From: a virus
DNA length: 33,780 nt
Virus record (IMG/VR): IMGVR_UViG_3300009706_000033
Coordinates: 1-33,780 of that record
Strand: one strand, 5' to 3'
Below, piece after piece: positions 2,177 to 25,966 of this stretch. Position 1 is the stretch's first letter. Every line of letters starts with the position of its first letter. The notes beneath the pieces are model-generated. The model worked only from the letters and a program-made list of their open reading frames with translations, did not search any database and was not told the DNA's origin. A program made the translations under genes and the position numbers.

Positions 2177-5100
2177 CTAGTTCGTGTACGATGTGCCTTC
2201 CCTTAAAGACGATAGCAACTTGGGAATCTTGGGGCCTGCGAAGTTTTGCCCGAACTCCCCTAACTTATCCCATTTACTTTGGATTTGATCCGCCAGCGAC
2301 GCCTTCCCAGCTGGACTCAAATTGGATATCAACGTGTTTACTTCCTGTGCGGACGGTTTACCGCTGAAAGCGTGACCTTTAATCAATGCGGAGACGTCCT
2401 CAGGAGAATCAAACACGTTTGGTTGGCCGCTCTCGCCCTTCGTTGTACCAAACGAAGCTACAATGCCTTTCGTTTTCGGATTTGTGGCCATGTCACCAAT
2501 TGTTTGCTGTGCGGCAGCATGCCGAGCTTGTTCCGTAGCTGTAAGTTCTTGTACTTCTTGGCCGGTAGGTGCTTTACCACCAGCAGCAGTCCCAGCAGCA
2601 GCAGTCCCAGCAGCAGTCCCAGCACCGGCAGCAGCACCTTCGTTCTTCTTACCTTGCAGTATCTGATAAATGAGCGGAATAGCCATCATTGCCAAGCCAC
2701 TCATGCCCATTTTCTTGCCGCCCCCTAAGAGGCCACCAATACCCAAGCCGCCGCCAGCCATCATCAATATCTTCATAAGAGGATTTATCTTTTGTGCAAA
2801 ATCTGGTCCCTGTCCCGACGCGTTACCAATAGCAGTAAGAATAGGATCTATAGTATTGCCAAAAGCTGCAACTCGTTCATCATTTCCTAGACCCGACAAC
2901 ATCTCCATAAAACCACCTGATTGTGCGTCAGGTTTATCAGTAGGAGGTACAGTAGGAGGTACAGTAGAAGGTACAGGAGGTCCAGCAGTACCAGGTGCTA
3001 CCTCAGGTGCTGCCCCAGGATTCGAAGTGAGATCTTCTTCAGGTAGTCCCATCGGAGTGGGATCTTCTTCAGGTAGTCCCATCGGAGTGGGATCTTCTTC
3101 AGGTAGTCCCATCGGAGTGGTAGGCTCCGAAGGCGGCTCCCCACCTTGTGTAGGAGGCACCCCGCTTTGTGTAGGAGGCACCCCGCTTTGTGTAGGAGGC
3201 ACACCTGTACCACCTGTAGAGCTGTCATACATACTCCTACCTAACGCAGCCAACTCTGGAGCCTCCGTAGCTGCAATCCCGGTACCAGTGAGCCACGGCA
3301 TCGCCTTAGCTGGAATTCGATTTTTTACCGTTTGAGGCATGAACCTATTAAAAAGTGGATTGATGATCTTGTTTTTGCTTGCTCCAAGTCCAGCGCCACC
3401 CCAACCAAGCGATTGTCCATAATTGCTGTCTACATCTCTCCATCTGTTTAGTTCATCCAGACCTTCGCCAGCACCGCTACCATAGAACATCCCCATGGCT
3501 GAATCTCCAACCGAAGGCAAATGCTTCTTTAACGTTGGCATGTTAAAGCCCATTCCCGCGCCAAGTAACGTATTGCGAGCAGTTTCACCCATTGTGGCAT
3601 CGTCACCAGACATGTTATAGCCGGTCATCCCGCCAACAGCCATTCGAGCTGGGGGCATAGTATAGCCCTTCGTAGCGTTCCATAATTGGCCTGGCGCAGC
3701 CTTCGTAGCGTCCAATCCTCGTCGAACTTGTTGGCCAGCACGGAACGCACCTGATACAGGTGCCTTGGCTTGCTGAGCCGCATTTCGAATTAGGTCATCC
3801 ACTGTTGTTTCGATATGATGCCGCCCAGCTCTTGCGCCTTGCCACATTGGTTTAGGTACTCCCCCGCCAGGAGCGTGAGGGCCGGGCTTTAATCCTCTTG
3901 AAGCCAACGACTCCACGTTCCTCGCATAATCGGCGCGACCTGGTCTTCTGACTCCCCGCGTAGCCTTCAGCGCCTTATCCGCTGCTTGCTCAGCAGTTTC
4001 ACCTATACTTCTCGAATAAAGGGGTCCGCCCGGCCTACCAGGACTCTTCGGTATATCAGCAAGACTCGTCCCTACATTTTTCATTTTAGTAACCTTAGGC
4101 ACAGCCTGTTGAGCTGCCTGAGGCACAGCTTGCTTAGCTGCCTGTTGAGTAGCCTGAGCTCCTCCTCTCCCCAACCACTGTGGAATTTTTTTCCGAATAA
4201 GATTACTGCCCACGTTCCATGCGCCCCGTCCCAGAGCTGACAACCCAGGTACAGGTAACGCAATCTTTTCCATGCCCTCTCGTAACTCTTCTGCGTACTC
4301 CTCTCCCATGTACTCCGCTACCTTCTCAATACCATCTCTAATCTGCTGGGGAGACAAGTTAGCTTCGTGAACTCGTACAGCAAAACCATACTGATAAGGG
4401 GTAAGCTCTGTGCCTTCCCAAGGTGCGACAAGAATAGCCTGCTTCTCAGCAGCAGCCTTGTAACCAAGGGGCATAGCGTGAAGTAAAGCTCTCCGTTCCT
4501 TTTCTTCCCTGTCTCTACGCCTGCTCTCAAAGACTTTGTAAAGTGCGTAAAGACCACCAACTCCAACCGTGCCTCCAGCGACCCAAGGCAGCCACTTATT
4601 GGCAGTATTCATGAAATTTCCAATAGACGTAGCTGAATCCGTCAATATTTTGACAGTGCTCGCATTGGAATCCCCAGTACTACCATCTCCTGTAGGCTTT
4701 CCATCTCCTCCTCCAGCTGACCCCTGGCCTCCTGTGATACTTTCTAATGACTCAGCAACGCTCTCACCTGCTGTTAAAGCTCTGTCAACCCTAGAAGGTT
4801 CTTGTGGTGTGCCAGGAACAGGAGCAGGAGCAGGAGCAGCCCCCTCCACTGGCGGTTTCAGATTCGGAAAAGCGAGATCAAACCTGTCAGTGATAGGTTT
4901 TGTGATAGACTCCCCTGCTTGCGCAACCGCTTCCCTGTTTGCTGCGGCAGCGTCGGAAGCGGTTTCGATCGCCTGCTGAAAAGCTCCAGGACTCCTCTTG
5001 GGATCATCACGGGGTAGATCAGACCACCGCGTAAATCGATCAATGTTACTCATCACATCTGGAGCCTTCTCTGTCCCTTTTGCAAGGTTTTCTGTCGCTT

Positions 5101-6106
5101 TAGCATGCGACCCCAGGATATCGGAAAAGTTCATCCCGATTCGGGGAATCTCGGCTGCCAACATAGCTTTAATCTTAGGCTTAGATAGCTCAGTCAGCGC
5201 GTCTACGTACTCAGCCGAACCTGGGGTCTGCGGTAGTTTTGCTGCCTCAACTGGATCCATCGCCGCCAACACATTCCGCCGCCCCTGTCGAGCATGCGTC
5301 CCAAGTTCCGGAATAAAGCGTTTATTACCAACAGAACCAGCGGCAAGACCTCGAAATCCTCGTCGCCAAAGCCCTTCGAGGTTTTGCGTAGTAGAATGAT
5401 CAGACCGCCAAAGCTTGTTCAAACCTCTCGGTTTTACAGGAGCTTTCGGGTCTACTGGAGCTTTCGGTCCCCATCCTAAAGCATCGTAAGCCTCTTCCCC
5501 TATAATGTCCCCCCCAGCTCCTGCGGTGAAAGAAGTTGCTGTCAACGGCTTCCCCGACAGGTAACTGAGCCCCGTCCCGAGCCCCTTACGAACTGACTTA
5601 CCTACATTCCATAGGTCACCGAGGCCACCGATCACGCCCGCAGTCTTCTCTTCCTGCTTCTTCTCAGCCGTCTTCATAAATTTGCCCAAACTAGCCCACG
5701 CATCTGGGCCAGTAGCGTGATCTTCATCTCGTGTCTTGTAGCTAACGCCATTATCCTCGCCAGTCGATGACTGCTGTGACTTACTGTTATCCTGAGCAGC
5801 ATACTTAGCCGCTAAATTGCGGAATTTAAATTCAGTGTCGTCCATGTCACTAGCCATTACTGTTTTAGGTTGTGATTGAAACTGTTGTAACGCGTTCTGA
5901 ATTCCATCAACATCAGCAAGACCCCTAGATGGATTAGATAGCTGCTCTTGAAATATGTTAGGCGTATTTGCTTGCTGGGATAACGCCCCTAAATTAGGAA
6001 TTCCCTGTGCTGAACCAGAGGGACCAACAGGCCCCTGCCAAGGAAAACGGTCAGACACACCAAGGCCGTTCGCTCCGCCTCCCTGATTTCCGTAAAATGA
6101 CGTCAT
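2177..6106 (-). CDS. Very large Ala/Gly/Pro-rich protein, probable internal or ejected virion protein
   Basis: The 1309-aa product is not recognised by family. The SD is AAGGAA, eight bases before ATG. It is low in complexity, with disordered linkers alternating with helical segments. A hydrophobic segment near residues 500-523 (PWVAGGTVGVGGLYALYKVF) is followed by a basic RRRDREEKERR stretch, as in a membrane anchor. Two more hydrophobic stretches lie near 1105-1150. Motif copies are EEKTAG (E153) and AAAEKQA (E554), with EKVA and EKIA shortly after E554. Tandem repeats occupy about residues 965-1025. Size, composition and membrane segments fit an inner virion or DNA-ejection protein, or a tape-measure-like protein, but no coiled-coil tape-measure pattern dominates. 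It is the last gene before the structured spacer. Confidence 0.8.
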   Translation of the reverse strand: MTSFYGNQGGGANGLGVSDRFPWQGPVGPSGSAQGIPNLGALSQQANTPNIFQEQLSNPSRGLADVDGIQNALQQFQSQPKTVMASDMDDTEFKFRNLAAKYAAQDNSKSQQSSTGEDNGVSYKTRDEDHATGPDAWASLGKFMKTAEKKQEEKTAGVIGGLGDLWNVGKSVRKGLGTGLSYLSGKPLTATSFTAGAGGDIIGEEAYDALGWGPKAPVDPKAPVKPRGLNKLWRSDHSTTQNLEGLWRRGFRGLAAGSVGNKRFIPELGTHARQGRRNVLAAMDPVEAAKLPQTPGSAEYVDALTELSKPKIKAMLAAEIPRIGMNFSDILGSHAKATENLAKGTEKAPDVMSNIDRFTRWSDLPRDDPKRSPGAFQQAIETASDAAAANREAVAQAGESITKPITDRFDLAFPNLKPPVEGAAPAPAPVPGTPQEPSRVDRALTAGESVAESLESITGGQGSAGGGDGKPTGDGSTGDSNASTVKILTDSATSIGNFMNTANKWLPWVAGGTVGVGGLYALYKVFESRRRDREEKERRALLHAMPLGYKAAAEKQAILVAPWEGTELTPYQYGFAVRVHEANLSPQQIRDGIEKVAEYMGEEYAEELREGMEKIALPVPGLSALGRGAWNVGSNLIRKKIPQWLGRGGAQATQQAAKQAVPQAAQQAVPKVTKMKNVGTSLADIPKSPGRPGGPLYSRSIGETAEQAADKALKATRGVRRPGRADYARNVESLASRGLKPGPHAPGGGVPKPMWQGARAGRHHIETTVDDLIRNAAQQAKAPVSGAFRAGQQVRRGLDATKAAPGQLWNATKGYTMPPARMAVGGMTGYNMSGDDATMGETARNTLLGAGMGFNMPTLKKHLPSVGDSAMGMFYGSGAGEGLDELNRWRDVDSNYGQSLGWGGAGLGASKNKIINPLFNRFMPQTVKNRIPAKAMPWLTGTGIAATEAPELAALGRSMYDSSTGGTGVPPTQSGVPPTQSGVPPTQGGEPPSEPTTPMGLPEEDPTPMGLPEEDPTPMGLPEEDLTSNPGAAPEVAPGTAGPPVPSTVPPTVPPTDKPDAQSGGFMEMLSGLGNDERVAAFGNTIDPILTAIGNASGQGPDFAQKINPLMKILMMAGGGLGIGGLLGGGKKMGMSGLAMMAIPLIYQILQGKKNEGAAAGAGTAAGTAAAGTAAGGKAPTGQEVQELTATEQARHAAAQQTIGDMATNPKTKGIVASFGTTKGESGQPNVFDSPEDVSALIKGHAFSGKPSAQEVNTLISNLSPAGKASLADQIQSKWDKLGEFGQNFAGPKIPKLLSSLREGTSYTN
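3031..3120. repeat. Three perfect 30-bp tandem repeats inside the 1309-aa gene
   Basis: The 30-base unit beginning GATCTTCTTCAGG occurs three times without a mismatch. It encodes the ten-residue unit TPMGLPEEDP in a Pro/Glu-rich linker. Unit length is a multiple of three, so copy changes keep the frame. Perfect identity suggests recent expansion. Confidence 0.95.
3150..3208. repeat. 21-bp tandem repeats inside the 1309-aa gene
   Basis: Two perfect copies and a partial third of a 21-base unit beginning GTAGGAGGCACC encode a GVPPTQS heptad repeated in the protein. It lies next to the 30-bp repeats. A shorter GTAGGAGGTACA-type repeat at about 2941-2980 encodes a run of TVPP. All keep the reading frame. 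Confidence 0.9.
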
Positions 6107-6128
6107 AGTGTGAATTCCTTAACTAATA

Positions 6129-6566
6129 TCATGGCGCTGACCAAGGAGCAGTCGGCCGGGGCGCTGACCAAGGGTATGGCCACCGCTTGTGGGAGGCCTT
6201 AGCTGGTGCTGGCGGTGCTTTTGGTAGACGAGCGCCTGCGGCCCTCATACCAAGCCCTTTCATACCACCAAGCCCTTTCATACCACCAGGCACAGCTCCA
6301 CCACCCGCTCCTTCAAAATAGGATGCGTCGTTAAGTCCGCCTGAAGCTGGCGGCATCTGCGGAGCTGGCTGTAGCTGGTCACGCTCCAGATATCGCGGGA
6401 GCCCCTGCGTAACTCCACTTGCCAGATGTTTCCCTGCCGAAGGCTCAGCAACACGGTCGCGCAGGTGTTGGGCAGGGCGGTCGATGTTCTTAAGCCAATC
6501 CCCCCAACCTTCTGCCTGCTTTTCCCTCTGAGCTGCAACTTTACCGAGAACTGATATCGTGTTCAT
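6129..6566 (-). CDS. Gly/Pro-rich protein with N-terminal EKQA motif, probable virion-associated protein
   Basis: I chose ATG 6566 over the longest frame (6614) because AAAGGA lies six bases before it and because it then follows the previous stop by two bases. The product is 145 aa and not recognised. It opens with MNTISVLGKVAAQREKQAEG (E15), closely resembling the N-terminus of the 396-aa protein at 7490-8680. A WGDW segment follows, then a disordered region with a duplicated GGMKGLG and a C-terminal PWSAP repeat. It lies directly upstream of the 1309-aa gene and shares its motif, so a common structure or pathway is likely. Confidence 0.65.
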   Translation of the reverse strand: MNTISVLGKVAAQREKQAEGWGDWLKNIDRPAQHLRDRVAEPSAGKHLASGVTQGLPRYLERDQLQPAPQMPPASGGLNDASYFEGAGGGAVPGGMKGLGGMKGLGMRAAGARLPKAPPAPAKASHKRWPYPWSAPRPTAPWSAP

Positions 6567-6568
6567 AG

Positions 6569-7480
6569 TTAATCCTTTAACCCTTGTCCGATTGTCTCGT
6601 GACCAAATCCCCATGCTAGAGGGTTTTCACATCCGTCGCCTTCACGAACTAATCCCATAAGTTTACCAAGCCAACTACCCCATGTAGGATAGTATATATC
6701 AACATGCCTCATCAACTCGATATCAACTACAACCCCTAACATCTCATCTGGGTGATTTACGATGTTAGGTTTAGGTGTCATTAGCACGTTATCAGCACCA
6801 AACTCCTCTACTATGCGGTCCAAAATAGGTTTTTCGTCCGAGACAACAAAGAATAAAGTAGATGAATCTTTTGCATAATGATGTCGCATCTTCGGAAGAA
6901 TACTGTCAGTAGCGTTCCACCCACGTACTTGATAGTTAGCCCCTTTACTCTGACGCAAATAAACACCCACTGTGGGACGACCTTCCATACGCTTCTTTAG
7001 TGACTCATATAAGTCTTGCTGCTTGGGATGAAGTTTAAACTTTTCGCGGTATAACAATCCCATCTCTTTGGCATCAGTAACTAATACATTAGAACGATCA
7101 GGGTCCAGTGAAAAATACCCATGAGCATCAATACAAAAACTTTCATTAACATGATGTGATAAGTGAACAGGAGACTTACCCTTACCATCTAAGTTCTGAG
7201 TGTGCTTTAAAGGATAGTGAGTAAACTCCCGTGCCTTAGCACCATGCACAGTCTCTCGTGTAGTGGTAAGAGTAGGATCCAAAGCATACAAATCATTAAC
7301 GCTCAATGGAAAGACACGTTCACGTGTGCTGCCAGCGCGGCCACCACCAGAAGTGGTATGAAGAGGCCAGCACACTACTAAACTGTGCGAAGATTCCCTC
7401 TCTATCGCAGACATGACCTGCAACAAAGGAATCATGCGTGCGCCAAAACCTCCTACAGGACGGAGGAATAGCTTAGCCAT
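6569..7480 (-). CDS. Fucosyltransferase-like (GT-B fold) glycosyltransferase
   Basis: The 303-aa product starts with FLRPVGGFGARMIPLLQVMS, like the GxGNR nucleotide-sugar loop at the start of NodZ/GT11/GT23-type fucosyltransferases, here with A in place of N. The middle segment TVGVYLRQSKG (about 170) resembles the conserved V-G-[VI]-H-[VI]-R-[RQ] strand, and FFVVSDEKPILDRIVEEFG matches the following donor-binding region. It would transfer a sugar from a nucleotide donor, but donor and acceptor are unknown. It is wedged between two genes carrying EKQA-type motifs, so virion proteins are plausible acceptors. The SD (GACGGA) is modest. The family call rests on motif memory only. Confidence 0.6.
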   Translation of the reverse strand: MAKLFLRPVGGFGARMIPLLQVMSAIERESSHSLVVCWPLHTTSGGGRAGSTRERVFPLSVNDLYALDPTLTTTRETVHGAKAREFTHYPLKHTQNLDGKGKSPVHLSHHVNESFCIDAHGYFSLDPDRSNVLVTDAKEMGLLYREKFKLHPKQQDLYESLKKRMEGRPTVGVYLRQSKGANYQVRGWNATDSILPKMRHHYAKDSSTLFFVVSDEKPILDRIVEEFGADNVLMTPKPNIVNHPDEMLGVVVDIELMRHVDIYYPTWGSWLGKLMGLVREGDGCENPLAWGFGHETIGQGLKD

Positions 7481-7489
7481 CTATCCGTC

Positions 7490-8680
7490 TCACTTATAGT
7501 TCTTCGCCGCAGTCGGTCGGCTGATATTGGGTGATCCGCCAAGACTACTAGCAGCTCTACCGACCACGTCCTGGAGAAATTGCTGGCCAAGCTCGCCGCC
7601 AATCTGTTTTGCCAGTAGCCTCCTGCCCCTATTATCCCCAGGATCTAGCGTCCCCAGCAACTGCCTCATCGAGTCATATGCCTGAGAGTTCTCTACATTT
7701 GAGCGACTAGTACTAGCCCTCTCCCGTAAAGAGTTTACTGTGTCCATTAGGGGACGCTGAGTAGTACCCTTCAGTGCACTTAAAGCCCGCCCAATAGTTT
7801 GATTGCGTAATACCTCCTTCCCGGAATGAGCTGCACTATCTGATAGCTCGCCGCCGAAGTTCTTTAATGCCCCAGTCCCTGCCTCTCGCATCCGCTTGAA
7901 AACTCCTCCAACAAGCGCTCTATCTACCGGGTTCTTATTTGTAATGCCGCTCCAAAACGTCTTTGGCATATGTTTGTAAAACAAATCACGGTTGAATTGT
8001 TCTCTCTGGGATCGGGGAAGTAAGGCATCAACTTGCTGATTGCCTGTGATAGGCTGGCTAGCAATGTAACTGTCTGCTGCGCTTGCGGCACCTGCCCCCA
8101 GCGACCCCAGCGTATAGGCCGATATAGGTCTTCCAACTGTAACACCAGACCCTACAGGACGAGCAGCACCAAGCCCTCTAGCTGTAGGTACACGTGGATT
8201 CCACAATGTTCTAAATGCGTCACCTACAGTGCTTGTGTGTTTGAAGTTGGTGTGAAACGGATCTGTTGATATTCCCGCAGTATCCCGTAACAAATTCCTG
8301 CCAGCCCTTTGTACCTGTCGAATCGCAGGAGCTCCCCGCATAGACCCCGCTGCGTCCCGATAATGTTTAAACGCCTTAACAGGGCGAGCCAAACTCGTCA
8401 TAGCACCCGCTGTCTGCGGAATCCCTTTAGATGCTTCCACTACTGTTCTAGGTATAGCACTAGCGGCAGCACGAGGAGCAGCCTTCACTTTACTAGCGAT
8501 AGCACCAGGGACTGCCTTTGCTTTTGCGAGAAGTGGCTTTGTTTTCGATGCTACGTTTTTTATCGTGCTACCCGCACCACGTAGTCGACTAAGACCCTTG
8601 AGGCCAAGACTTATCGCTTTGCCAATGCTGGCCTGCTTCTCAGCAGCCTGACGTCCAAGTTGTGCTATGCGAACGTTCAT
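7490..8680 (-). CDS. Ala-rich basic protein with N-terminal AAEKQA motif, probable virion-associated protein
   Basis: The 396-aa product is not recognised. The SD AAGGAA lies six to seven bases before ATG. The first 17 residues are MNVRIAQLGRQAAEKQA (E14), near-identical in style to the start of the 145-aa protein and to an internal site of the 300-aa protein. Residues about 20-110 are Lys/Ala-rich and likely helical. The rest is basic with short conserved-looking islands (TDPFHTNFKHTSTVGDAF, LFYKHMPKTFWSGI). No clear membrane segment is seen. If the motif is a protease site, removal of the first 14 residues would be predicted, as for a prohead-processed protein. Confidence 0.7.
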   Translation of the reverse strand: MNVRIAQLGRQAAEKQASIGKAISLGLKGLSRLRGAGSTIKNVASKTKPLLAKAKAVPGAIASKVKAAPRAAASAIPRTVVEASKGIPQTAGAMTSLARPVKAFKHYRDAAGSMRGAPAIRQVQRAGRNLLRDTAGISTDPFHTNFKHTSTVGDAFRTLWNPRVPTARGLGAARPVGSGVTVGRPISAYTLGSLGAGAASAADSYIASQPITGNQQVDALLPRSQREQFNRDLFYKHMPKTFWSGITNKNPVDRALVGGVFKRMREAGTGALKNFGGELSDSAAHSGKEVLRNQTIGRALSALKGTTQRPLMDTVNSLRERASTSRSNVENSQAYDSMRQLLGTLDPGDNRGRRLLAKQIGGELGQQFLQDVVGRAASSLGGSPNISRPTAAKNYK

Positions 8681-8717
8681 CAGTTTTCCTTGGTACCCTC
8701 TACCCCGTAACCCTAAC

Positions 8718-8804
8718 CTAAAGGGTTAGAGCATCAACCTCAATGTCACACCCTGTGGCAGCAGCACACGCTACAATGGCTAATATGTAAAATGCAAATC
8801 TCAT
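8718..8804 (-). CDS. 28-residue putative lipoprotein
   Basis: This small frame has a strong SD (TGGAGG, five bases before ATG 8804). It encodes 28 residues: a basic start (MRF), a hydrophobic core (AFYILAIVACAA) and a lipobox-like ATGC with Cys at position 19, then a short acidic tail. That is a complete lipoprotein signal with almost no mature chain, similar in style to small phage lysis lipoproteins of the Rz1 kind, although no matching inner-membrane spanin partner is evident. It follows the near-palindrome at 8837-8854 by 33 bases and precedes the 396-aa gene. A seven-base-pair hairpin (TAACCCT/AGGGTTA) covers its stop codon. Confidence 0.6.
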   Translation of the reverse strand: MRFAFYILAIVACAAATGCDIEVDALTL

Positions 8805-8836
8805 CGTAACCTCCAGTAAAATGTGACCACGTCATC

Positions 8837-8854
8837 TTAAATAGTAGTATTTAA
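8837..8854. repeat. Near-palindromic TTAAAT-N6-ATTTAA element, copy B
   Basis: This copy is identical to copy C at 9194 over 24 bases including CTT and ACGTC flanks. It lies just after the stop of the 107-aa gene and 33 bases before the small lipoprotein gene. A promoter, operator or RNA-processing role is possible. Confidence 0.55.
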
Positions 8855-8857
8855 ACG

Positions 8858-9181
8858 TCAGTACGTGCGACGTACCCTAGCAGCAAGCTGCCCAAGGGCC
8901 TCAGTCCAATAGCCCGCCTGCTTCTCCGCCTCTTCGGGTTTGTAATAACTGAGACCCCACCCACCAATGTTCTTTCCCGTAAAAACCTCTACGTCATCCT
9001 TGGCGTCCTCGTTTTCCGCAAGTCTGCGGTATTCGTTCTTGTTTATGCCCCATTTGCTTTCCCTTTTATTTCTGGCGTAGCGCGTACCTGGGGGATCCGG
9101 CTTAGCCTGTTTCTCCCTGTATGCATTAAAACACAGCGAAGCAAGTTTAATACGTTGATCATGCGATAAAGTAATACTCAT
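8858..9181 (-). CDS. Small protein with two EKQA motifs, unknown function
   Basis: The 107-aa product is not recognised. An SD (AAGGAGA) is placed well before ATG 9181. The motif occurs twice: YREKQAKPD (E23) and EEAEKQAGYW (E86), near both ends, enclosing a core with KRESKWGINKNEY and NIGGWGLSYYKPEE. Cleavage at both sites would release a middle fragment of about 63 residues. The gene is bracketed by two identical copies of the TTAAAT-N6-ATTTAA element. The neighbours on both sides also carry the motif, so it probably belongs to the same virion or maturation set. Confidence 0.65.
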   Translation of the reverse strand: MSITLSHDQRIKLASLCFNAYREKQAKPDPPGTRYARNKRESKWGINKNEYRRLAENEDAKDDVEVFTGKNIGGWGLSYYKPEEAEKQAGYWTEALGQLAARVRRTY

Positions 9182-9193
9182 AACATCTTCTCC

Positions 9194-9211
9194 TTAAATA
9201 GTAGTATTTAA
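9194..9211. repeat. Near-palindromic TTAAAT-N6-ATTTAA element, copy C
   Basis: The stop codon TAA of the 300-aa gene (9208-9210) lies inside the element, and the SD of the 107-aa gene follows at once. Identity to copy B covers 24 bases. Its position at a stop/start junction matches the copy at 19647. Confidence 0.55.
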
Positions 9212-10110
9212 ACGTCTGCACGTTCAGTAACTTCAACTTCGTCTTCAGTACCGTCATTAATCTTCCCGTCACCATCTCCGTCTTCGCTCAAGCCAGCCAA
9301 TAAAGCTTGAATATCATCACCCTCTTCCTTCTCTTCCTTTTCCGGGGCCTCAGCATACTCCTCAGGATAACTGAGCCGTACTGCGTCGTCCCTAGTACGC
9401 CCTTTTAACTTGTCATAAATAATCTCAGGCAAACCGCGAGGAAACTGACGAGATAACCCACTCTTTCGAGGATGATTCCAGCGAAGACCTAGATACGGAG
9501 CAAGACTGGATTTGTCAGGTGCGTTGGATAGAGATGGACCGTATTTAAAGACGGGCGCAGCACCCACTTGGACGCCTCTTTTCTTATCGCCAACGTCAAT
9601 AGAAGCAGTAGGAATAGGGAGCAACCCAAGAAGATTCGTATAACCTACCGACCCTCCAACACCTTTGTCCTCAGGATGCAAACCAAACTCTCCGCCACCC
9701 CAGGCAATAAAAGCCTGCTTCTCAGCAGCTACTTTACCCAACTGCTGGACGGGTGTTTTGCTCTTAAAATGCCCGCTTTTGAGAAGATCGTCCGTTAAAT
9801 GCGAAATATGGCGATGGATAGCCCGCTTTTCAAGCGTCTTTAAACGGCTAAGTAGACCCTCAGGCTGTCCCCCAATGCGCGACATAGCGTTCTTATTAAC
9901 AGAACTTACCTTTACGGGCATGCCTTTGGCAATTTGCCTGGCTTGCCGTTCACGGACGTTACGTTGGACGGCAAGCTGGAGACTTTTATGCTCTTTTTCT
10001 TTTTGCTTGGCCTTGTCCTTCATCGCTGCGTCAGCCGCAACAACAGGGGCACTCAGAGTCTCCCAAGCAGTCGATAGAGCGTCGCTCTTTTTTTGCATGT
10101 GTGAATCCAT
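9208..10110 (-). CDS. Virion-associated candidate with AAEKQA motif and acidic calcium-binding-like tail
   Basis: The 300-aa product is not recognised. The N-terminal third is a Lys/Gln/Arg-rich helix, probably a coiled coil. KVAAEKQAFIAWGGG (E130) then precedes a Gly-rich, beta-like domain (about 130-230: GVGGSVGYTNLLGLLPIP, YKYGPSL-type strands, YLGLRWNHP). The C-terminus is acidic and contains DGDGDGKIND, the D-x-D-x-D-G-x-I pattern of EF-hand or dockerin-like calcium loops; position 12 is Thr instead of Glu, so binding is uncertain. Cleavage at E130 would separate helix from beta domain, as in scaffold-type removal. No strong SD is visible before ATG 10110. Confidence 0.65.
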   Translation of the reverse strand: MDSHMQKKSDALSTAWETLSAPVVAADAAMKDKAKQKEKEHKSLQLAVQRNVRERQARQIAKGMPVKVSSVNKNAMSRIGGQPEGLLSRLKTLEKRAIHRHISHLTDDLLKSGHFKSKTPVQQLGKVAAEKQAFIAWGGGEFGLHPEDKGVGGSVGYTNLLGLLPIPTASIDVGDKKRGVQVGAAPVFKYGPSLSNAPDKSSLAPYLGLRWNHPRKSGLSRQFPRGLPEIIYDKLKGRTRDDAVRLSYPEEYAEAPEKEEKEEGDDIQALLAGLSEDGDGDGKINDGTEDEVEVTERADV

Positions 10111-10200: not shown

Positions 10201-10932
10201 CTAACCACCAATATCACTAAATAAGCCCTTCAAGTTAAGTGGATTCACAGAAACTATCTCTACATTCGGGTATTCTTTGTCTTTAAATTCAGCGAAGTGT
10301 TGCCAATCTTCTATCAAATTACGATGGAGAGCATATCGCTCTTGGCTGTGTAGTCTGCCGTCTTCAAACTTTACCTCTACACAAGAGTTTACACCGCCGC
10401 AATCACATCCAACCACGTATATCCTTTGTACTCCAGCGTATAACAAAAATTGCATCGCAGAAAATATAATGCTGTGGTTGTAAAAAGGCATTGTAACTAG
10501 ATCATACGAAAAAGCGTTTGGCCCGTGGCCTAAGTGTAGATCGTATTCAATCGCATTCATCGCCTTAGCATGTTCTGACGTAAAGTGTCTTGGCTGCTGC
10601 CGCCCATTCACCGTAGTCCCACAAAAAACCTGCGTGTCTCGAGAACGTTCGATTATTGTCTCTAAGTAACCAGATTCCCGTTGCACATAATCATTGTCCG
10701 GAAAATCGCTGCACCAGTAATAATCTAGTTCAAACTCTCTCTTGTAAATCATTAAATTTACGCCTACGCGAACCAACGGCTCTTCAGGCAACACGGCGTA
10801 ACTAAATTCTCTAAGGGAACCACCTGTCCCGAATACAATAGCAGCTTCCCCCTCGTGCTTATTCTTGAAAGGTAAAAACGACCGGTTTATAGGCACATGC
10901 CTAGGTGACTCACCCAGTAGATTTGTAGGCAT
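10201..10932 (-). CDS. DUF115/MptE-like protein, candidate sugar transferase (copy 1)
   Basis: I chose ATG 10932 (243 aa) over 10971 because GGAGA precedes it at about ten bases and because its N-terminus then aligns with the second copy at 13505-14209. Shared segments are FLPFKxKHxGExA, GVNxxxY, a central DYYxC and the closing strand RIYVVGCDCGG. These match the Rossmann-like DUF115 fold (PF01973), known in archaeal MptE and in Maf proteins that transfer nonulosonic acids to flagellin. It overlaps the CMP-sugar synthetase-like gene by 23 bases, which supports a joint role. I infer a glycosyltransferase acting on a CMP-sugar, but a pyrophosphokinase-like function remains possible. Confidence 0.65.
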   Translation of the reverse strand: MPTNLLGESPRHVPINRSFLPFKNKHEGEAAIVFGTGGSLREFSYAVLPEEPLVRVGVNLMIYKREFELDYYWCSDFPDNDYVQRESGYLETIIERSRDTQVFCGTTVNGRQQPRHFTSEHAKAMNAIEYDLHLGHGPNAFSYDLVTMPFYNHSIIFSAMQFLLYAGVQRIYVVGCDCGGVNSCVEVKFEDGRLHSQERYALHRNLIEDWQHFAEFKDKEYPNVEIVSVNPLNLKGLFSDIGG

Positions 10933-11566
10933 AAGATATAAGCTTCTCCACCAATCTAAAATCATCTGCAATGTCTATTTGAAAACTGTCTTGTAGTTTC
11001 ATCTCAACAACTCCGATATTGCCACTTATTCTGCACTTTGATTCTAACAATCTTTCCTTTGTTGTTATATAAAACGCTCCGTTTTCTACATATACACTAT
11101 CTCTATCCTGTCGCCTTGGTCTATTATAGTTATCAAACCCAATGGGGTTTATGTTCATATCCCATCTAGGAACCCAATGCTCTTCATGTACACTGAATAC
11201 CGAATCATATTTTTTCATTTTATTTAACCCAATATTAACATATGACGGTTTCAAAAGAGGAGAAGTTGGTTGAATAAAAACTAATGTATCAAAATCAACA
11301 TTTTCAGCAAAATGTAATAATGCTTCTTCGCTTGGAGACTCGTCTGTTGCAAATTCAGCGGGGCGATCTATTACAAATGCCCCGCAGCCCTCGGCAACTG
11401 ACTTTATCTCTGCGTCTTCCGTAGACACCCACGTCTCATGAACATTTGAAGCCCTAGAAGCTTGTATGACATAGTCAATAAGCGGGCGACCAACCAACTC
11501 CCTAATGTTCTTACTGGGAACACCTTTACTTCCCCCTCTTGCTAATAGGATGGAAGCTATTTTCAT
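10910..11566 (-). CDS. CMP-sugar synthetase (NeuA-like cytidylyltransferase, copy 1)
   Basis: The 218-aa product carries the full signature: LARGGSKGVPSKNIRELVGR (about 8-27) for CTP binding, FIQPTSPLL (about 97-105), NRPRRQD (about 148-154), ENGAFYI (about 160-166) and QIDIADDF near the end. The family condenses CTP with a nonulosonic acid such as sialic, legionaminic or pseudaminic acid, or with KDO-like sugars. Its length is close to that of single-domain NeuA proteins. It starts one base after the methyltransferase stop, with AAAGGA about ten bases upstream. The next gene encodes a DUF115 protein, so the activated sugar may be used there. The exact sugar cannot be read from sequence. Confidence 0.88.
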   Translation of the reverse strand: MKIASILLARGGSKGVPSKNIRELVGRPLIDYVIQASRASNVHETWVSTEDAEIKSVAEGCGAFVIDRPAEFATDESPSEEALLHFAENVDFDTLVFIQPTSPLLKPSYVNIGLNKMKKYDSVFSVHEEHWVPRWDMNINPIGFDNYNRPRRQDRDSVYVENGAFYITTKERLLESKCRISGNIGVVEMKLQDSFQIDIADDFRLVEKLISYAYKSTG

Positions 11567-12157
11567 CTACCCAAGTTCCTTTAAAATGATCTGCATCCGA
11601 CGACCTGTAGCATATTCATCAAAATAAGCTCTGTTATCTGTTTCCGAAGCTTCAAAGCTAACTAAACTCGTAGGCCAATCAGTCCACGCAAGAGGATTAG
11701 TAAATGTGTCCGATTCAGTCTTCACCGGTCGACCATAAGGCAAGCCCATAGCTACTGATTTATCCGTATCTTCAACAAACACTCCGCTATACATAGCAAA
11801 GACGCCCGTCTTGCCTGCCTCCTGCATCCTAGACACGAATGTCTTAACTTCCGGCTCCGGGCTCCACGCATAATACAAATCAGCCTCTGGGAGACCTTCG
11901 GGAGTCACTCGTTCATTCAGAAGAACAACGTTCTCTCGAAGATCTGTTCGTGTAGCCGCCAAAGAATACCAATCTTTATTTTGCTCGTACCCCGTGTAGT
12001 GACTGGCATACTTCGACCACGTAGGTATGTAATCCCCCGCCGCACAACCTATTTCTACAACTTTCTTATCCTCGTAATACTCTTTCAAGGCCTCAGGCAC
12101 TTCAATGGGTCCACGCCAAGGACGTTGAAGAATGGTCGTAGGATTGTGAGAGATCAT
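11567..12157 (-). CDS. SAM-dependent methyltransferase (class I)
   Basis: ATG 12157 overlaps the deacetylase stop as ATGA and has AAGGGA nine bases upstream, so I prefer it to the frame start at 12178. The 196-aa product has the class I motif I VVEIGCAAGDY (about 31-41), then GYEQN, consistent with the acidic residue ending beta-2. The later LYYAWSPEPE could be motif IV. Substrate is unknown, but its place between a sugar deacetylase and a CMP-sugar synthetase suggests sugar O- or N-methylation. Small-molecule or protein methylation is an alternative. Confidence 0.75.
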   Translation of the reverse strand: MISHNPTTILQRPWRGPIEVPEALKEYYEDKKVVEIGCAAGDYIPTWSKYASHYTGYEQNKDWYSLAATRTDLRENVVLLNERVTPEGLPEADLYYAWSPEPEVKTFVSRMQEAGKTGVFAMYSGVFVEDTDKSVAMGLPYGRPVKTESDTFTNPLAWTDWPTSLVSFEASETDNRAYFDEYATGRRMQIILKELG

Positions 12158-12885
12158 GCGGGTAAGTCCCTTAAGCAAATTACGGTATACCCACTCTTCG
12201 CTATATACTCTACGACAGCTACCAAGTCGTTAAATACCTTATCATGAACCACGCCGTGACCGCCCAAAACAGCTACATGCCCGTCAGGCATTCTATCCAT
12301 ATCCCGCTCAAAACGGTCAATAGTATAGCAATCTGCCGGGTTCGGCCACGCACCCAAGACACCAGTGCACGGGACACGAAAACGATCTGTAACTCCAGGA
12401 ATATAATAAGGCGTTTCGGATACATCAGACAAATAAACCATCTTGTTGCCAGGAAGATAACCAGAGCGAGCAAAGGATATCCCGCTAGCCTTCAGGCCTG
12501 CTACATAAATATCATCTACAAGATAACCCGGATAACAAAATGTCGTAGGAGTAGGTATCCCTAAGTCAGCTAGCTTATCGTTCAGTTTATAAACCTCTCG
12601 TTGAATAGCTTCAACGTTTTCCAAATACGACATGCCTACATGGCTCCACGTGTGGTTCCCTATCTCAAAACCATCATCATGTAATTCCTTGATTTCTTCC
12701 CATGACATACCTTTTTCGTTTAAAGCCCTGAAAAATAGATTTGCATCAAGACGCCACCATAACGTATCCTTCGCATTAGTAACAAAAAAAGTAGCTCTCA
12801 TATTGTATTCTTTCAATAACGGAGCAACTCTTGTGTAATGGCTCTTAACACCGTCATCAAACGTGAGTACGACTTTCTTCACCAT
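12154..12885 (-). CDS. Polysaccharide deacetylase (NodB-homology, carbohydrate esterase 4 fold)
   Basis: The 243-aa product has motif 1 LTFDDG (D10, D11), motif 2 GNHTWSH (H78 and H82, metal ligands), and motif 3 CYPG (about 128-131). A late VLGGHG may be motif 5. These enzymes remove N- or O-acetyl groups from sugars with a divalent metal. No signal peptide is present, so it should act in the cytoplasm, fitting a biosynthetic role on a sugar intermediate better than attack on cell wall. ATG 12885 overlaps the preceding gene's stop by seven bases and has GGAG upstream. Confidence 0.88.
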   Translation of the reverse strand: MVKKVVLTFDDGVKSHYTRVAPLLKEYNMRATFFVTNAKDTLWWRLDANLFFRALNEKGMSWEEIKELHDDGFEIGNHTWSHVGMSYLENVEAIQREVYKLNDKLADLGIPTPTTFCYPGYLVDDIYVAGLKASGISFARSGYLPGNKMVYLSDVSETPYYIPGVTDRFRVPCTGVLGAWPNPADCYTIDRFERDMDRMPDGHVAVLGGHGVVHDKVFNDLVAVVEYIAKSGYTVICLRDLPA

Positions 12886-14209: not shown

Positions 14210-14564
14210 CTTTGACGCCGCCGCAGTTATCCCTAAGAATGTCCTTCTCCGGTAAATCTACCCAATAGATCTCGTAGGCCACCGTATCCTCAAGCGCCTC
14301 AAACATGTGGTACTCCCCAGGAGATACAACAGTCGTCTGTGCAGACGTCACCACAGTCTTATCCACCAAATCATAATCATTTTTCCATGTTGTTATCATG
14401 AGCTTACCACTCTCGACGTAAAAAGCATTGAACTTATGCGCATGTAAGTGCTTGGAAGAATAACCACCCTTTGCCGCTGTAATCCGACGAAACTCAACGT
14501 TGTTTTTAGAAAACAACAGCTGAGTCGTGCCCCACACTTTGCCTTGGATACTTGATATTTCCAC
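14202..14564 (-). CDS. Single-domain cupin, probable sugar-nucleotide pathway enzyme
   Basis: The 120-aa product has cupin motif 1 as HLHAHKFNAFYVESG (H39/H41/H43 and E51) and motif 2 as PGEYHMFEA (H86). This gives a complete His/His/Glu/His metal set. The length fits a one-domain cupin of the mannose-6-phosphate isomerase-like or sugar epimerase/isomerase type. Such cupins occur often in nonulosonic acid and O-antigen gene clusters. The start GTG 14564 lacks a clean SD (AAAG farther upstream). The reaction cannot be assigned. Confidence 0.75.
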   Translation of the reverse strand: MEISSIQGKVWGTTQLLFSKNNVEFRRITAAKGGYSSKHLHAHKFNAFYVESGKLMITTWKNDYDLVDKTVVTSAQTTVVSPGEYHMFEALEDTVAYEIYWVDLPEKDILRDNCGGVKDG

Positions 14565-14587: not shown

Positions 14588-15289
14588 TTAGTTTACAAAT
14601 TCGGACTTCTCTGTCTCGCTCCCGCCAGAATTTGTCTGAGTCACCACATCCGACAGAAGCCTATACGCGTTTAACTTTCTCTTAAAACTATATAGATCTC
14701 GAAGATCTTTTCGTGGGTGATCGCAAAAAGCTACCGAAAGAAATTCGTCTGGAGTAATAAGGTTTTTTTCGATGCCTGAGCTTGCTAGTAAACCTGCACA
14801 TTCTTTTGTTACTATATATCCGTGTGTGTTATACGTGTAATCACACTTAGCAAGCAAAGAATTCACCTTCAACCCTGATTCTATAGGGTTGCATCCTAAG
14901 TAAAATATATCGTAATGTCCCACAAAGTTATTAACAATTTGTAACCCCTTAACCAGATCTTCGTATACGAAAGTAGCATCTCCTTCTAAGATCAATGCCG
15001 TTTCAAATCCCTTCTTAAGAATGTCTTTCCACACAAGATAATGACTAAGCATGCAACCCGCTTCGCCTAACTTTACTGGTCGATTCCACCAGTTATTATC
15101 TGAAGCAATCTCCCAACCGTCGTAACAATAAAAACCCTCTTTACTCATACTTGAGGCGCTTAATTTTTGACCGTCTACTGCATCAAACAAGTACACAGGA
15201 CAAAAATCTACCTCATAGAGCAAATCAGTTATCTTCTTTCTTCTCTCAGGGAGTCTTTCCAGCGATATAACGTAGATAGCGTCAATCAC
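14588..15289 (-). CDS. Glycosyltransferase family 25 (LPS-type) protein
   Basis: The product (233 aa from GTG 15289; a TTG one codon earlier is also possible) begins AIYVISLERLPERRKK, the classic GT25 opening. It continues with the AxDG-like LFDAVDGQKL, then KLGEAGCMLSHYLVWKDIL and ALILEGDATFV, where the acidic EGD stands at the donor-metal site. GT25 enzymes add galactose or related sugars to LPS or collagen. AAGG lies upstream and the gene overlaps the preceding stop by eight bases. It is the first gene of the glycan cassette in transcript order. Confidence 0.88.
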   Translation of the reverse strand: MIDAIYVISLERLPERRKKITDLLYEVDFCPVYLFDAVDGQKLSASSMSKEGFYCYDGWEIASDNNWWNRPVKLGEAGCMLSHYLVWKDILKKGFETALILEGDATFVYEDLVKGLQIVNNFVGHYDIFYLGCNPIESGLKVNSLLAKCDYTYNTHGYIVTKECAGLLASSGIEKNLITPDEFLSVAFCDHPRKDLRDLYSFKRKLNAYRLLSDVVTQTNSGGSETEKSEFVN

Positions 15290-15971
15290 CAAGGCTTACC
15301 TTGTGTAAAATTAATACTGCTGCTTGCTTGCCAAGTTCCGCAACAGCAGTCTTCCCCTCTTGTTTCTTCTTCCTTTTTTTAAGCCAGCGATAAATCCCAT
15401 AAGCTCCTAGTGGAATACCAGCCCCGGCAGCAACGCCCGCCCAAAGCCGTGGATTGTCGATCCAGCCGCCAAGCGATGATTGCGTACTTCTAAGATTCGA
15501 TTCCGTCTTATATTGTTCAGTTAATGCTTCTTGCAAGGTATTAATCTTACTCTTGTACTGATTAGAAGACCGCCGCACAGCTTCTTGAACATCTGATGGC
15601 CCAAGCGCCGTGTTTTGCAGCTCGCGTAATTCATCCTCCATATCCCAATACTCACCCTGCAACTTGCGCCTGCTGTCCCGTACTACACGGGTTCGCTTCC
15701 GCTGCTCCTCATACATTGGCTCCCAGTCGAAACCAGGAAACCAGGACCACCCCGCATACTTTTCAACCCAGTCGATTGGTTTATACTTACTGTCCATCCA
15801 ATCTTCATAAGAAACATTAGGCTCTGCGGCCTTCTTCTCTCTCTTCTTCTTCTTTTTTTTAGACTTCTCAGGTAAAGATTTATGGTCAGAGGTATGGTCA
15901 GACCACTTCTTAGCCATGTCTGGCTTGTTGGCATACATCCAACGCTGCTGTGCTTTGCTTTTGAATGGCAT
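15282..15971 (-). CDS. Coiled-coil and transmembrane protein with PFKSKAQQRWMYANKP start and EKxA motifs
   Basis: The 229-aa product starts with MPFKSKAQQRWMYANKP, a segment I have met at the start of small phage and bacterial proteins of unknown role. A Lys-rich stretch (36-48) is encoded partly by a run of eight A. EKxA-type sites follow: REKKAAE (E45) and WVEKYAGWSW (E70). Residues about 87-165 form a likely coiled coil, then a membrane segment (about 177-196), a basic KKRKKKQ and a C-terminal LGKQAAVL. The strong SD is AAGGAG. Charge pattern and anchor suggest an inner-membrane or internal virion protein. A spanin or holin role is not supported by size or by neighbours. Confidence 0.7.
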   Translation of the reverse strand: MPFKSKAQQRWMYANKPDMAKKWSDHTSDHKSLPEKSKKKKKKREKKAAEPNVSYEDWMDSKYKPIDWVEKYAGWSWFPGFDWEPMYEEQRKRTRVVRDSRRKLQGEYWDMEDELRELQNTALGPSDVQEAVRRSSNQYKSKINTLQEALTEQYKTESNLRSTQSSLGGWIDNPRLWAGVAAGAGIPLGAYGIYRWLKKRKKKQEGKTAVAELGKQAAVLILHKVSLGD

Positions 15972-19435: not shown

Positions 19436-19630
19436 TTAACCTTTTTTACGTCCATACCTGTGAGGAGATTGCGCATTTCCAGTAGACTCGTTCATCGCGT
19501 TACGTACCTCCTTTTTATCGGCTTCCGTTTTCACCTTGTACAATTTCGACTGGCTCCCTCTTCGCTTCGACGACTTGCCGCAGCTTTTTTTAGCGGCAAG
19601 TTTGCCCAGCGCTGCAATTTTACCTAACAT
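19436..19630 (-). CDS. Small basic protein next to the tubulin-like gene
   Basis: ATG 19630 is preferred over GTG 19639 because AGGTGG lies five bases before it. The 64-aa product is very Lys/Arg-rich. It begins MLGKIAALGKLAAKKSCGKS, close to the LGKxAA part of the EKQA motif proteins, and continues with KRRGSQSK, TEADKKEVRN and a final GRKKG. It is not recognised. Its basic charge and position before the filament gene invite comparison with the DNA-binding TubR partner of TubZ, but it is shorter than TubR and shows no clear helix-turn-helix. A small DNA-binding virion protein is equally possible. Confidence 0.55.
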   Translation of the reverse strand: MLGKIAALGKLAAKKSCGKSSKRRGSQSKLYKVKTEADKKEVRNAMNESTGNAQSPHRYGRKKG

Positions 19631-19646
19631 ACTTACCACCTATATC

Positions 19647-21283: not shown

Positions 21284-21296
21284 GGTCTATCAATAG

Positions 21297-23541: not shown

Positions 23542-25464
23542 TTACATAGGTGGTGCACCACCGCCTTGGCCCATCAGCATGGCGCCTCCTTGCATACGAG
23601 CATCTCTGCGAATATCGTCCATGGTTTCGCGAACCAAAGCGTGCAGCGTTGGATTAAATTGTTTGAGTTCTCGTAGCTGAGAGTCCTTCTGCCCCTCAGG
23701 TAAACCAAGCAACTGTTGAGCAAGTGCCTGTGCAGCCGCCTGTAGGTCGTTAGGTGTTACCGGTGTGTTTGGACCCATTGTCCCGACGTACTCTGAGACA
23801 GGCGTCATACCAGCTCCCATAGCCGACTGAGCGTCAGCGCCTGGGGGATTTCCACCGCCTTGAGCCGCTCCTGCCATAGAACCGGCTCGGCCCATAGCAG
23901 CACCCTGACCACCGCCGGGAGGAGGAGCACCTCCTTGTCCCTTGGCAATCTCGGCAGCAAAACCAGCCTGCTCCATCTCTTCCTGAGCACGAGCCTGGAG
24001 TTCCTGCTGTGTTTGAGCTTCCTCTGACAGTAACTTCTGCTCGGACTCCCAATCGTATCCAATTGCCTTGAGTCCTGTAGTACCAGAAACCTGCTGACCC
24101 ATCATCAACTGGAGGGCTGCCATCTGCTTCTGCATGTCATCAGCAATAGTCACCCTGGTAAGGCCAACGTCTACCTGATCCCAACTCATCACTTCGCCTA
24201 TACCGTTCGAAATCCACTGCAAAAGAGAGTTTGTTTCGTGCACCAAACTGCGCCAAGTGCTTTCAAATAATCGAAGTGCGGTAGGAGCTGCCTGTGTCGT
24301 TAAGGTACCCTTATACAGTTCTACAGGAGTGCCGGTCTCGTTTAACAACGTCTCCAGCCCTTGATCCATCAAGTCACGAGGAGCCAAATTGTTAGCATCC
24401 CCGCCCATCATGTCATACTGGACTGGGAAAGGAAGAATCTGCCACGAAGCAGGATCACGACGACGCCGATTAATCATACTTTTAACTTGCGACCGAAAAT
24501 CCCCCGCGTTGTGAAACATCATCGGATCTTGCGCTGGAAGACCGCCAGCCCCAGCGCCGCCGCGCGTAGCAGGGGTAATTAAGCGAAAAGGAATTACGTA
24601 ATCTAACGCAATCGCCTCGTTAAACCGACGTAGTACTTGTACGTAGTATATTTGTCTGAAGTTAACCAGCGTGCGAGGCAAACCCCAGCCGCGATTTTTA
24701 ATGCCAGCTAACGTCGGCTCTTTCATATGAAAGATAGCGTCCGTGTTAAACCTAAAGACTTGGTTTTTTTTTATCGCTAACAAAACCTGTTCGCTAACAC
24801 GTTCTAAGTGATAAAGATGTCCCTTTTTAACCTGCCTCTTGTAGTCTTCAGGAATCCTCCACAAATAAGCTACTTCATCCGTATAAGGGTCGTGAAGTAA
24901 TTCAATCTCGTGCGGGCTCCACCGCTTTAATTTGATGTTATGCTCTTCGTCCTCTGGCTTATCAATAACTTTCCAGGCCCCACGCCATTTTGTCTTTGGA
25001 CAAGTTGCTACAAACTCAAAGTCTGAGGTCCATGAAAAATTAAAGCGGCTATTATTATAAACTTCAGATAGAGGATACAAATCTCCTGTTTTTGGTGACA
25101 TTAAAAACCGACGAAAGGGGACGATAATGCTTCCAAAAGCATTCCCGTAACACATCCTGTCTCGCATCATGTTTTGCAAAAAATCCATGATGCCAATCGT
25201 GTCGTTTAAATATTCCGACCACTTCTTTTTTTCGTCATTTGAAATGTCGCCAGTCACCTCGACATCTGTAAGAAAATAAGAAACGATACGCTCCATCGCC
25301 ATCCGATAAGTTCCAAAGACACCCCAAATATACTCTGACCACCACAAAGCATTCTTCATGGTCGTCGGCATATTTTGACTGGCGACGTCTAGAAACGGAT
25401 CAGGAAACTGCTGATCTCCTGACCCGCTTTTCCAATGGGGAGCATTGGCGAATGTCATCTTCAT
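23542..25464 (-). CDS. Portal protein
   Basis: The 640-aa product looks like a large-phage portal: an N-terminal helical part (WWSEYIWGVFGTYRMAMERI), a wing with LHDPYTDEVAYLW, and a conserved-looking block GWGLPRTLVNFRQIYYVQVL (about 263-282), then a clip and stem region (NETGTPVELYKGTLTTQAAP) and a Gly/Ala/Gln-rich C-terminal tail. Portals form the dodecameric DNA channel of the capsid. The SD GGAGG is two bases before ATG 25464 and eight before a second ATG at 25458, so the shorter start (638 aa) is more likely. No terminase or major capsid gene is seen in the window. Confidence 0.85.
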   Translation of the reverse strand: MKMTFANAPHWKSGSGDQQFPDPFLDVASQNMPTTMKNALWWSEYIWGVFGTYRMAMERIVSYFLTDVEVTGDISNDEKKKWSEYLNDTIGIMDFLQNMMRDRMCYGNAFGSIIVPFRRFLMSPKTGDLYPLSEVYNNSRFNFSWTSDFEFVATCPKTKWRGAWKVIDKPEDEEHNIKLKRWSPHEIELLHDPYTDEVAYLWRIPEDYKRQVKKGHLYHLERVSEQVLLAIKKNQVFRFNTDAIFHMKEPTLAGIKNRGWGLPRTLVNFRQIYYVQVLRRFNEAIALDYVIPFRLITPATRGGAGAGGLPAQDPMMFHNAGDFRSQVKSMINRRRRDPASWQILPFPVQYDMMGGDANNLAPRDLMDQGLETLLNETGTPVELYKGTLTTQAAPTALRLFESTWRSLVHETNSLLQWISNGIGEVMSWDQVDVGLTRVTIADDMQKQMAALQLMMGQQVSGTTGLKAIGYDWESEQKLLSEEAQTQQELQARAQEEMEQAGFAAEIAKGQGGAPPPGGGQGAAMGRAGSMAGAAQGGGNPPGADAQSAMGAGMTPVSEYVGTMGPNTPVTPNDLQAAAQALAQQLLGLPEGQKDSQLRELKQFNPTLHALVRETMDDIRRDARMQGGAMLMGQGGGAPPM

Positions 25465-25488: not shown

Positions 25489-25725
25489 TCACCCGCCGCT
25501 AAGTAACTTATCGCGGTGGCGATTTAAAGTTTCTAACGCGTCCTCCGCGTTCGCTATCATCTCTACCTGTTTTCGCATTTCCTCCTGCAAATCAGGATGT
25601 TCGCCAATACCAGCAGGGTTCTCAAAATACACCATCAAATTGTGAAGTGCGGATGTCTGTTCCGCTAGAAAATGATTTTTCAAGGCGTCAAACGCCATCT
25701 CTTTACGTTCAATTGGTCGGGCCAT
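25489..25725 (-). CDS. Small helical protein upstream of the portal gene, unknown
   Basis: I chose ATG 25725 because GAGGAAA lies a few bases before it. The frame itself opens at GTG 25755. The 78-aa product is mostly helical (KEMAFDALKNHFLAEQTSAL and LQEEMRKQVEMIANAEDALE) and ends KLLSGG. It is not recognised. It overlaps the preceding 85-aa gene by 17 bases and ends 24 bases before the portal start, so a chaperone-like or portal-associated function is possible. A degraded TTAAAT element lies 20 bases upstream. Confidence 0.65.
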   Translation of the reverse strand: MARPIERKEMAFDALKNHFLAEQTSALHNLMVYFENPAGIGEHPDLQEEMRKQVEMIANAEDALETLNRHRDKLLSGG

Positions 25726-25966
25726 CAGTTTCCTCATGTACGGCGTCAATAGCACTATTTAAAAGAGAATCTTGCATGTCATCTGCTTGCTTCTCCGTAT
25801 CCGGTTCCCTCCCCCGCTCTGCTGCTGAAGGCTGAGGCTCCAGATCAGAAAAAGGTAGAGTCTTCTGTTGACTAGCCGTAGCTGTCTTCTCATTTTCATG
25901 ACAACTACCACCACAACAACCGCCCGGAGTCGATTCGCTAATTACACCGCGCTTTTCCATCGTCAT
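25709..25966 (-). CDS. Small protein with Cys cluster and EKxA motifs, unknown
   Basis: The 85-aa product is not recognised. A strong SD (GGAGG) precedes ATG 25966, which overlaps the previous stop as ATGA. GGCCGGSCH (15-23) offers three Cys and a His in nine residues, enough for a metal site. ENEKTA (E26) and DTEKQADD (E58) resemble the virion-protein motif. The rest is polar and probably disordered. Location just before the portal suggests a virion or assembly role. Confidence 0.6.
   Translation of the reverse strand: MTMEKRGVISESTPGGCCGGSCHENEKTATASQQKTLPFSDLEPQPSAAERGREPDTEKQADDMQDSLLNSAIDAVHEETDGPTN
25745..25762. repeat. Degraded TTAAAT-type element, copy E
   Basis: On the minus strand TTAAATAGTGCTATTGAC keeps the left arm and centre of copy A (TTAAATAGTGGTATTTAA) but has lost part of the right arm. 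It lies inside the 85-aa gene, 20 bases before the 78-aa gene start. Because it is coding it may be chance. Confidence 0.25.

Follow-up and report, generated by a model that had tools for sequence, protein, structure and literature searches.

Enrichment of E-K-x-A in the window

What function, if any, is carried by a four-residue peptide, E-K-x-A, that recurs in many unrelated proteins of one large uncultured phage? The question arose at a 33.8-kb virus fragment (33,780 nucleotides, hereafter the window), which was compared with 13 related contigs, 80 capsid-gene loci, and two cultured relatives. Every E-K-x-A site listed in the original prediction is present in the open reading frames of the window, and three overlooked sites were added (E594 and E613 in a 1309-aa protein and E94 in a 300-aa protein). 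Relative to 4000 within-protein, composition-matched shuffles, E-K-x-A occurs 14 times where 3.2 are expected, the excess over composition that the prediction had named as its own check, and EKQA occurs seven times where 0.12 are expected; none of the 4000 shuffles reached either count. The LGKxAA element reported ahead of the motif is also in excess (LG[KR].AA, 6 observed versus 0.07 expected in the same shuffles), and because it includes K-x-A itself, LGKVAAEKQA amounts to two tandem K-x-A sites. A tryptophan reported behind the motif did not hold up. It lies within the next eight residues at 5 of 14 sites in the window, compared with 12% for all lysines (P value ~0.02), and near only 19 of 222 sites in six relatives, so it is not part of the motif. 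The E-K-x-A repeat in the window is a real signal and not chance, and the relatives show it to be one portion of a broader pattern. Plain K-x-A, regardless of E, is not enriched across the whole window (54 versus 51 expected); its enrichment belongs to head-core proteins, which are mostly encoded outside this fragment.

Window genes carrying the motif

Genes with the motif were located on the minus strand. The largest codes for a 1309-aa late protein (2177..6106) with E-K-x-A at residues 153, 554, 594, and 613 (5639-5650, 4436-4447, 4316-4327, and 4259-4270). It is homologous to conserved large proteins of the relatives, including one of 863 aa in contig G003, and its EKVA...EKIA pair aligns with EKVA...EKLA of that protein; overall, its K-x-A content is at background (9 versus 9.3). 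A 300-aa protein (9208..10110) has EKRA at residue 94 (9820-9831) and LGKVAAEKQAF with the motif at residue 130 (9712-9723), and partial homologues were identified in G002 and L002. Searches for near relatives with the 1309-aa and 300-aa proteins returned none.

Three further proteins carry the motif close to the N-terminus, and homologues sought for them in the relatives were not found. A 161-aa protein (6129..6614; 145 aa from the second Met) has the N-terminal sequence LGKVAAQREKQAEGW and EKQA at 6513-6524, its E31 being the residue first reported as E15 from the 145-aa start. A 396-aa protein (7490..8680) has N-terminal LGRQAAEKQAS, with EKQA at residues 14-17 (E14; 8630-8641), and a 107-aa protein (8858..9181) has EKQA at residues 23 (9104-9115) and 86 (8915-8926). 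The 396-aa protein is predicted to be head-internal with a leader of ~17 aa. The 161-aa protein is likewise predicted to reside inside the head and to have a cleavable leader at its N-terminus, a function taken from the motif only because it has no homologue in the relatives. By analogy with the internal proteins of T4 and their capsid targeting sequences (PMC9026906), a motif close to the N-terminus probably marks a window protein as head-internal cargo, to be packaged and trimmed.

A 229-aa protein (15282..15971) has EKKAA at residue 45 (15828-15839), EKYAG at residue 70 (15753-15764), an N-terminal MPFKSKAQxR module ahead of EKKAA, and the C-terminal sequence EGKTAVAELGKQAA; proteins of G003, G004, and G008 with a similar N-terminal module likewise have EK[TK]A downstream of it. 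A 67-aa protein, LGKIAALGKLAAKK (19436..19639, minus strand), has two K-x-A and no EKQA, and its homologues are YEKIALLGKLAA in G002 and YEKIALLGKAAA in L002. An 85-aa protein (25709..25966) has EKTA at residue 26 (25880-25891) and EKQA at residue 58 (25784-25795), and the 15 members of its family contain 35 K-x-A, compared with 10 expected and five of the reversed A-x-K. Its gene is near the gene for the 640-aa portal protein (23542..25464, minus strand), much as the gene for the small core protein gp67 of T4 stands beside the T4 portal gene. Neither Pfam nor PHROGs yielded an informative name for the motif proteins or for the protease and scaffold families described below.

Distribution in related phages

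The portal gene connects the window with the phages chosen for comparison. As a query, it matched 24 contigs of up to 225 kb with 55%–91% identity, and more distantly Salmonella phage Arash (26% identity to its annotated portal) and Vibrio phages D69, D148, and D181. The window contains neither a protease gene nor a capsid gene; in the closest relatives having both, portals are 66% identical to that of the window.

Whole or near-whole sequences from thirteen relatives were compared. E-K-x-A is enriched in most relatives that cover the late region (49 versus 15.7 expected, 46 versus 18.6, 46 versus 19.5, 40 versus 15.4, 39 versus 17.7, and 30 versus 13.4), and in G003, 41 of 49 sites fall between 48 and 105 kb of 194 kb. 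There was no enrichment in G001, a 116-kb contig confined to the genome half that lies upstream of the portal (9 versus 10.3), and little excess over the whole proteomes of G010, G011, G012, and G014, although the head proteins of G010 are rich in K-x-A. In non-core proteins of the relatives, the excess is found at residues 10-60 (49 versus 19.9, P value 3e-8); past residue 60, counts are 94 versus 79, and the reversed control is flat.

K-x-A as the core of the motif

Single proteins of the head gene cluster contain 14–18 K-x-A where 4–5 are expected, with A-x-K at background in most. Seven head-gene families, 276 proteins in all, together contain 2663 K-x-A versus 980 expected (2.7-fold) and 858 A-x-K, totals that are not an unbiased test because the families were recognised by their K-x-A richness. 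By family, the counts are 842 versus 272 for the protease, 545 versus 251 for the scaffold, 717 versus 277 for a 461-aa protein, 240 versus 69 for a 146-aa protein, 116 versus 49 for an 841-aa protein, 127 versus 41 for a 131-aa protein, and 76 versus 21 for a 392-aa protein. Three tests are free of bias from family choice: the reversed-motif control, the neighbouring head families (390, 1060, 175, 217, and 336 aa), in which K-x-A is not enriched, and a blind ranking of residue pairs with a one-residue gap. For T4 gp67, gp68, gp21, and gp22, the blind ranking placed I-x-E and L-x-E on top, which is the known gp21 motif; applied to three relatives (protease, scaffold, and core proteins), it placed K-x-A on top (z 10.2, 8.4, and 7.7). 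The SPN3US control was weak, with A-x-E fourth among pairs.

It is hardly credible that Lys/Ala-rich helical proteins produce K-x-A by chance or that the sites descend from one repeated module. The proteins concerned are indeed K- and A-rich and mostly helical, but A-x-K is at or under expectation in the same proteins, which contradicts a composition effect, K-x-x-A and A-x-x-K increase far less than K-x-A, and R-x-A is without enrichment.

E precedes K at just 25% of the 2663 sites. The motif core is therefore K-x-A, and E before K is merely preferred. The residue behind it is selected as well: after the alanine of K-x-A, Ser is 2.3-fold and Ala 2.2-fold over expectation, while Pro (0.23), Ile (0.13), and Leu (0.31) are depleted, compared with 0.84, 1.17, 1.11, 0.79, and 1.10, respectively, after other alanines of the same proteins. 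In the D181 scaffold, Ser or Ala follows 10 of 10 K-x-A. Known relatives of the protease read P3-x-P1, and K-x-A followed by Ser or Ala fits that plan.

Further K-x-A-rich proteins were observed in the relatives. A 392–396-aa protein of G004 (L055 17880-19058) and G002 (12172-13362), with 14–16 K-x-A versus 2.6–4.2 expected, is encoded far from the head cluster, has no Pfam or PHROG match, and is predicted to belong to the head core as well. Scaffold-like proteins are encoded at L124 38195-38977 (Arash) and L208 4639-5448 (D181); that of Arash is made up of a helical-looking unit (A-VN-LV--G--F--A--LVKEAS) that recurs along the protein, and K-x-A-S/A stands where one unit meets the next. In G007 (120895-129023), the motif is often K-x-A-x-D in the protease, the scaffold, and an adjoining protein (52 versus 17, proteome).

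Invariant sites in the capsid protein and protease

In the major capsid protein, K-x-A occupies one homologous place in 33 of 33 distinct N-terminal contexts from contigs 34%–100% identical to the query. It directly precedes the conserved N-arm, and its middle residue and the residue before K vary. The cultured relatives share the site (GLVKEAGAAM in Arash and GLTKEAGAAM in D181), and the D181 protein has no other K-x-A. Ile or Val follows the alanine in most members, which is rare at other sites and makes the capsid site an exception. The group's capsid protein (L125 8001-8945) is detectably related to gp27 of Bacillus phage G (6wkk, E value 4e-7), the only solved relative. Unlike the group's protein, gp27 lacks K-x-A, and its PDB chain has 280 aa against 282 aa encoded, leaving hardly any N-terminal extension.

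The second invariant site is in the protease, where K250-x-A252 is present in 60 of 60 sequences immediately behind the catalytic domain. Capsid contexts and protease sequences are partly related, and these counts are not of independent events. AlphaFold2 models a confident catalytic domain, a segment at 240-272 with pLDDT <50, and a helical C-terminal domain; K250-x-A252 falls in the low-pLDDT linker that joins the two domains, as expected of a putative autocleavage site. In the C-terminal part, K-x-A occurs 423 times versus 116 expected (3.6-fold), with 3–10 copies per protein spread over 65 alignment columns, of which just four are used by half of the sequences. Positions that turn over while copy number is maintained would be expected if these were redundant cut sites and the region were destined for destruction, and the pattern argues against descent from one module.

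The protease appears to have the assemblin fold. A model of the isolated domain (pLDDT 90) aligned by VIA-align with T4 gp21 (5jbl; Z 9.1, 140 aligned residues, 3.6 A) and with the herpesvirus maturation proteases of VZV (Z 8.9), HSV-2 (7.2), PRV (7.0), and HCMV (6.4). The top rows of the fold list are thus two known branches of one fold, with MCE domains below (Z <=5.7); Foldseek searches with the full-length and domain models gave no significant match, so the fold evidence comes from one aligner. H62, H103, S166, and D237 are invariant in the alignment, and the His and Ser residues among them are candidates for the catalytic ones. Gene order in G003 is protease, scaffold, small core gene, and capsid, and the neighbourhood is alike in Arash and D181. 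The protease gene that the original prediction had asked for is thus represented by an assemblin-fold candidate in the head cluster of the relatives and is absent from the window. With the tubulin-like protein described below as query, no near relative carrying a capsid gene was found.

The original prediction had placed the core at AAE/E-K-x-A, with a phiKZ- or T4-type protease cutting after Glu (AAE|KxA) and leaving N-termini that begin with K-x-A. The studied T4- and phiKZ-type prohead proteases, including those of giant phages, do cleave after Glu (PMC5694885), and E stands before K at 14 of 14 E-K-x-A sites in the window, by definition, and at a quarter of all K-x-A. However, the position before K varies freely at both invariant sites, in capsid protein and protease (E, T, I, V, Q, A, N, D, or R), K and A never change, and A-x-E, S-x-E, G-x-E, L-x-E, and I-x-E are near expectation in the seven-family substrate set. 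Since the residue before K varies and K and A are fixed, a cut after Glu is very improbable and a cut after Ala likelier.

Alternatively, K-x-A could serve for docking: as a short helix contacting a core or scaffold protein, it would bring proteins into the prohead and itself remain uncut. The density of the motif in core proteins, its N-terminal position in others, and its frequent occurrence in predicted helical sequence (Leu two before) would agree with this, and the T4 targeting leader and cut site overlap (PMC9026906). We consider docking unlikely, as it leaves unexplained the invariant K-x-A in the low-confidence protease linker, the following-residue rule (Ser/Ala, not Pro/Ile), the invariant place before the capsid N-arm, and the parallel with the T4 cut motif in the blind control.

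Proposed role in head maturation

The observed enrichment, its direction, its distribution among proteins, the two invariant sites, the following-residue selectivity, and the assemblin fold together suggest that the prohead protease of the phage itself very likely recognises and cuts this peptide, most probably after Ala. Cleavage itself, its position behind Ala, and packaging of the window proteins are what we infer from these patterns. Maturation cleavage was correctly anticipated in kind, and some sites have N-terminal, targeting-like positions, but the motif form and the cut position differ from those first proposed.

In the proposed mechanism, K-x-A would be the P3–P1 recognition motif of the group's protease within a full site [F/L/M]-[E/V/I/T]-K-x-A-[S/A], cut likely behind Ala. 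Core proteins to be destroyed (the C-terminal part of the protease, the scaffold, and small core proteins) would have many copies of the site, and proteins staying in the head one or two. The major capsid protein would shed its N-terminal arm and cargo proteins an N-terminal leader. We infer that most motif-bearing proteins of the window are head-internal and of the staying kind.

Similarities to T4 gp21 include the predicted fold, the proposed P3-x-P1 form of the motif, and a small core gene beside the portal gene. As with the T4 substrates (gp22, gp67, gp68, gp23, and the internal proteins), core proteins are motif-dense, the capsid protein has one site, and other proteins have predicted N-terminal leaders. 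A T4-type capsid targeting leader of ~10–20 aa ends at the cut motif, and the site of the 396-aa protein is at residues 14-17. In contrast, the T4 motif is [L/I]-x-E (PMC9026906), and the Peptidase_S77 profile (PF03420) matched none of 12 relatives. Known giant-phage proteases release a C-terminal propeptide by autocleavage, and their P3-x-P1 motif is followed by Ser at P1' (PMC10052503, PMC5694885). SPN3US gp245 and phiKZ gp175 also remove N-terminal propeptides from head-internal proteins, an arrangement that sequence patterns suggest here. These two enzymes cut after A-x-E (SPN3US, with Ser at P1'; PMC10052503) or [S/A/G]-x-E, which are not enriched here, and propeptides of their known substrates are often >100 residues, unlike those proposed here.

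In herpesvirus cut sites, P3 is occupied by a hydrophobic residue instead of Lys. Herpesvirus assemblin belongs to a different virus realm and resembles the protease described here in fold (Z 6.2–8.9) and in having a C-terminal part behind the protease, which is released in herpesvirus (PMC8537868). The standard HCMV substrate is VVNA-SS (PMC3853728).

On balance, we favour a broader reading in which a large group of mostly uncultured phages of roughly 150–235 kb has an assemblin-fold protease that reads Lys at P3 and Ala at P1, a specificity new to the T4-like branch and nearer to that of herpesviruses, and in which the motif tags head-internal or ejected proteins. No paper on a prohead protease with K-x-A was found in a search of mainly open-access literature, and the specificity looks new. 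If true, prohead protease recognition has shifted in evolution toward Ala, as in herpesviruses. With Lys-x-Ala as the cut mark, proteins processed inside the phage head could therefore be read from sequence alone, and substrates and probable ejected proteins would be findable in phages never grown. Salmonella phage Arash and Vibrio phage D181, the two cultured relatives, make the specificity testable.

Other features of the window and its relatives

A 473-aa protein of the tubulin/FtsZ family is encoded at 18011-19432 (Pfam Tubulin, E value 1.5e-9); it is conserved in the relatives and weakly related to PhuZ (PHROG 4733, E value 0.02). By eye and from sequence only, a sugar-nucleotide/glycosyltransferase-like gene cluster, with cytidylyltransferase-like, polysaccharide-deacetylase-like, and glycosyltransferase-like members, lies amid the virion genes at 10201-14564 and 20213-22810. 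G003 codes for a 3030-aa collagen-like protein (105906-114998) with G-x-x repeats containing GATG/GASG units.
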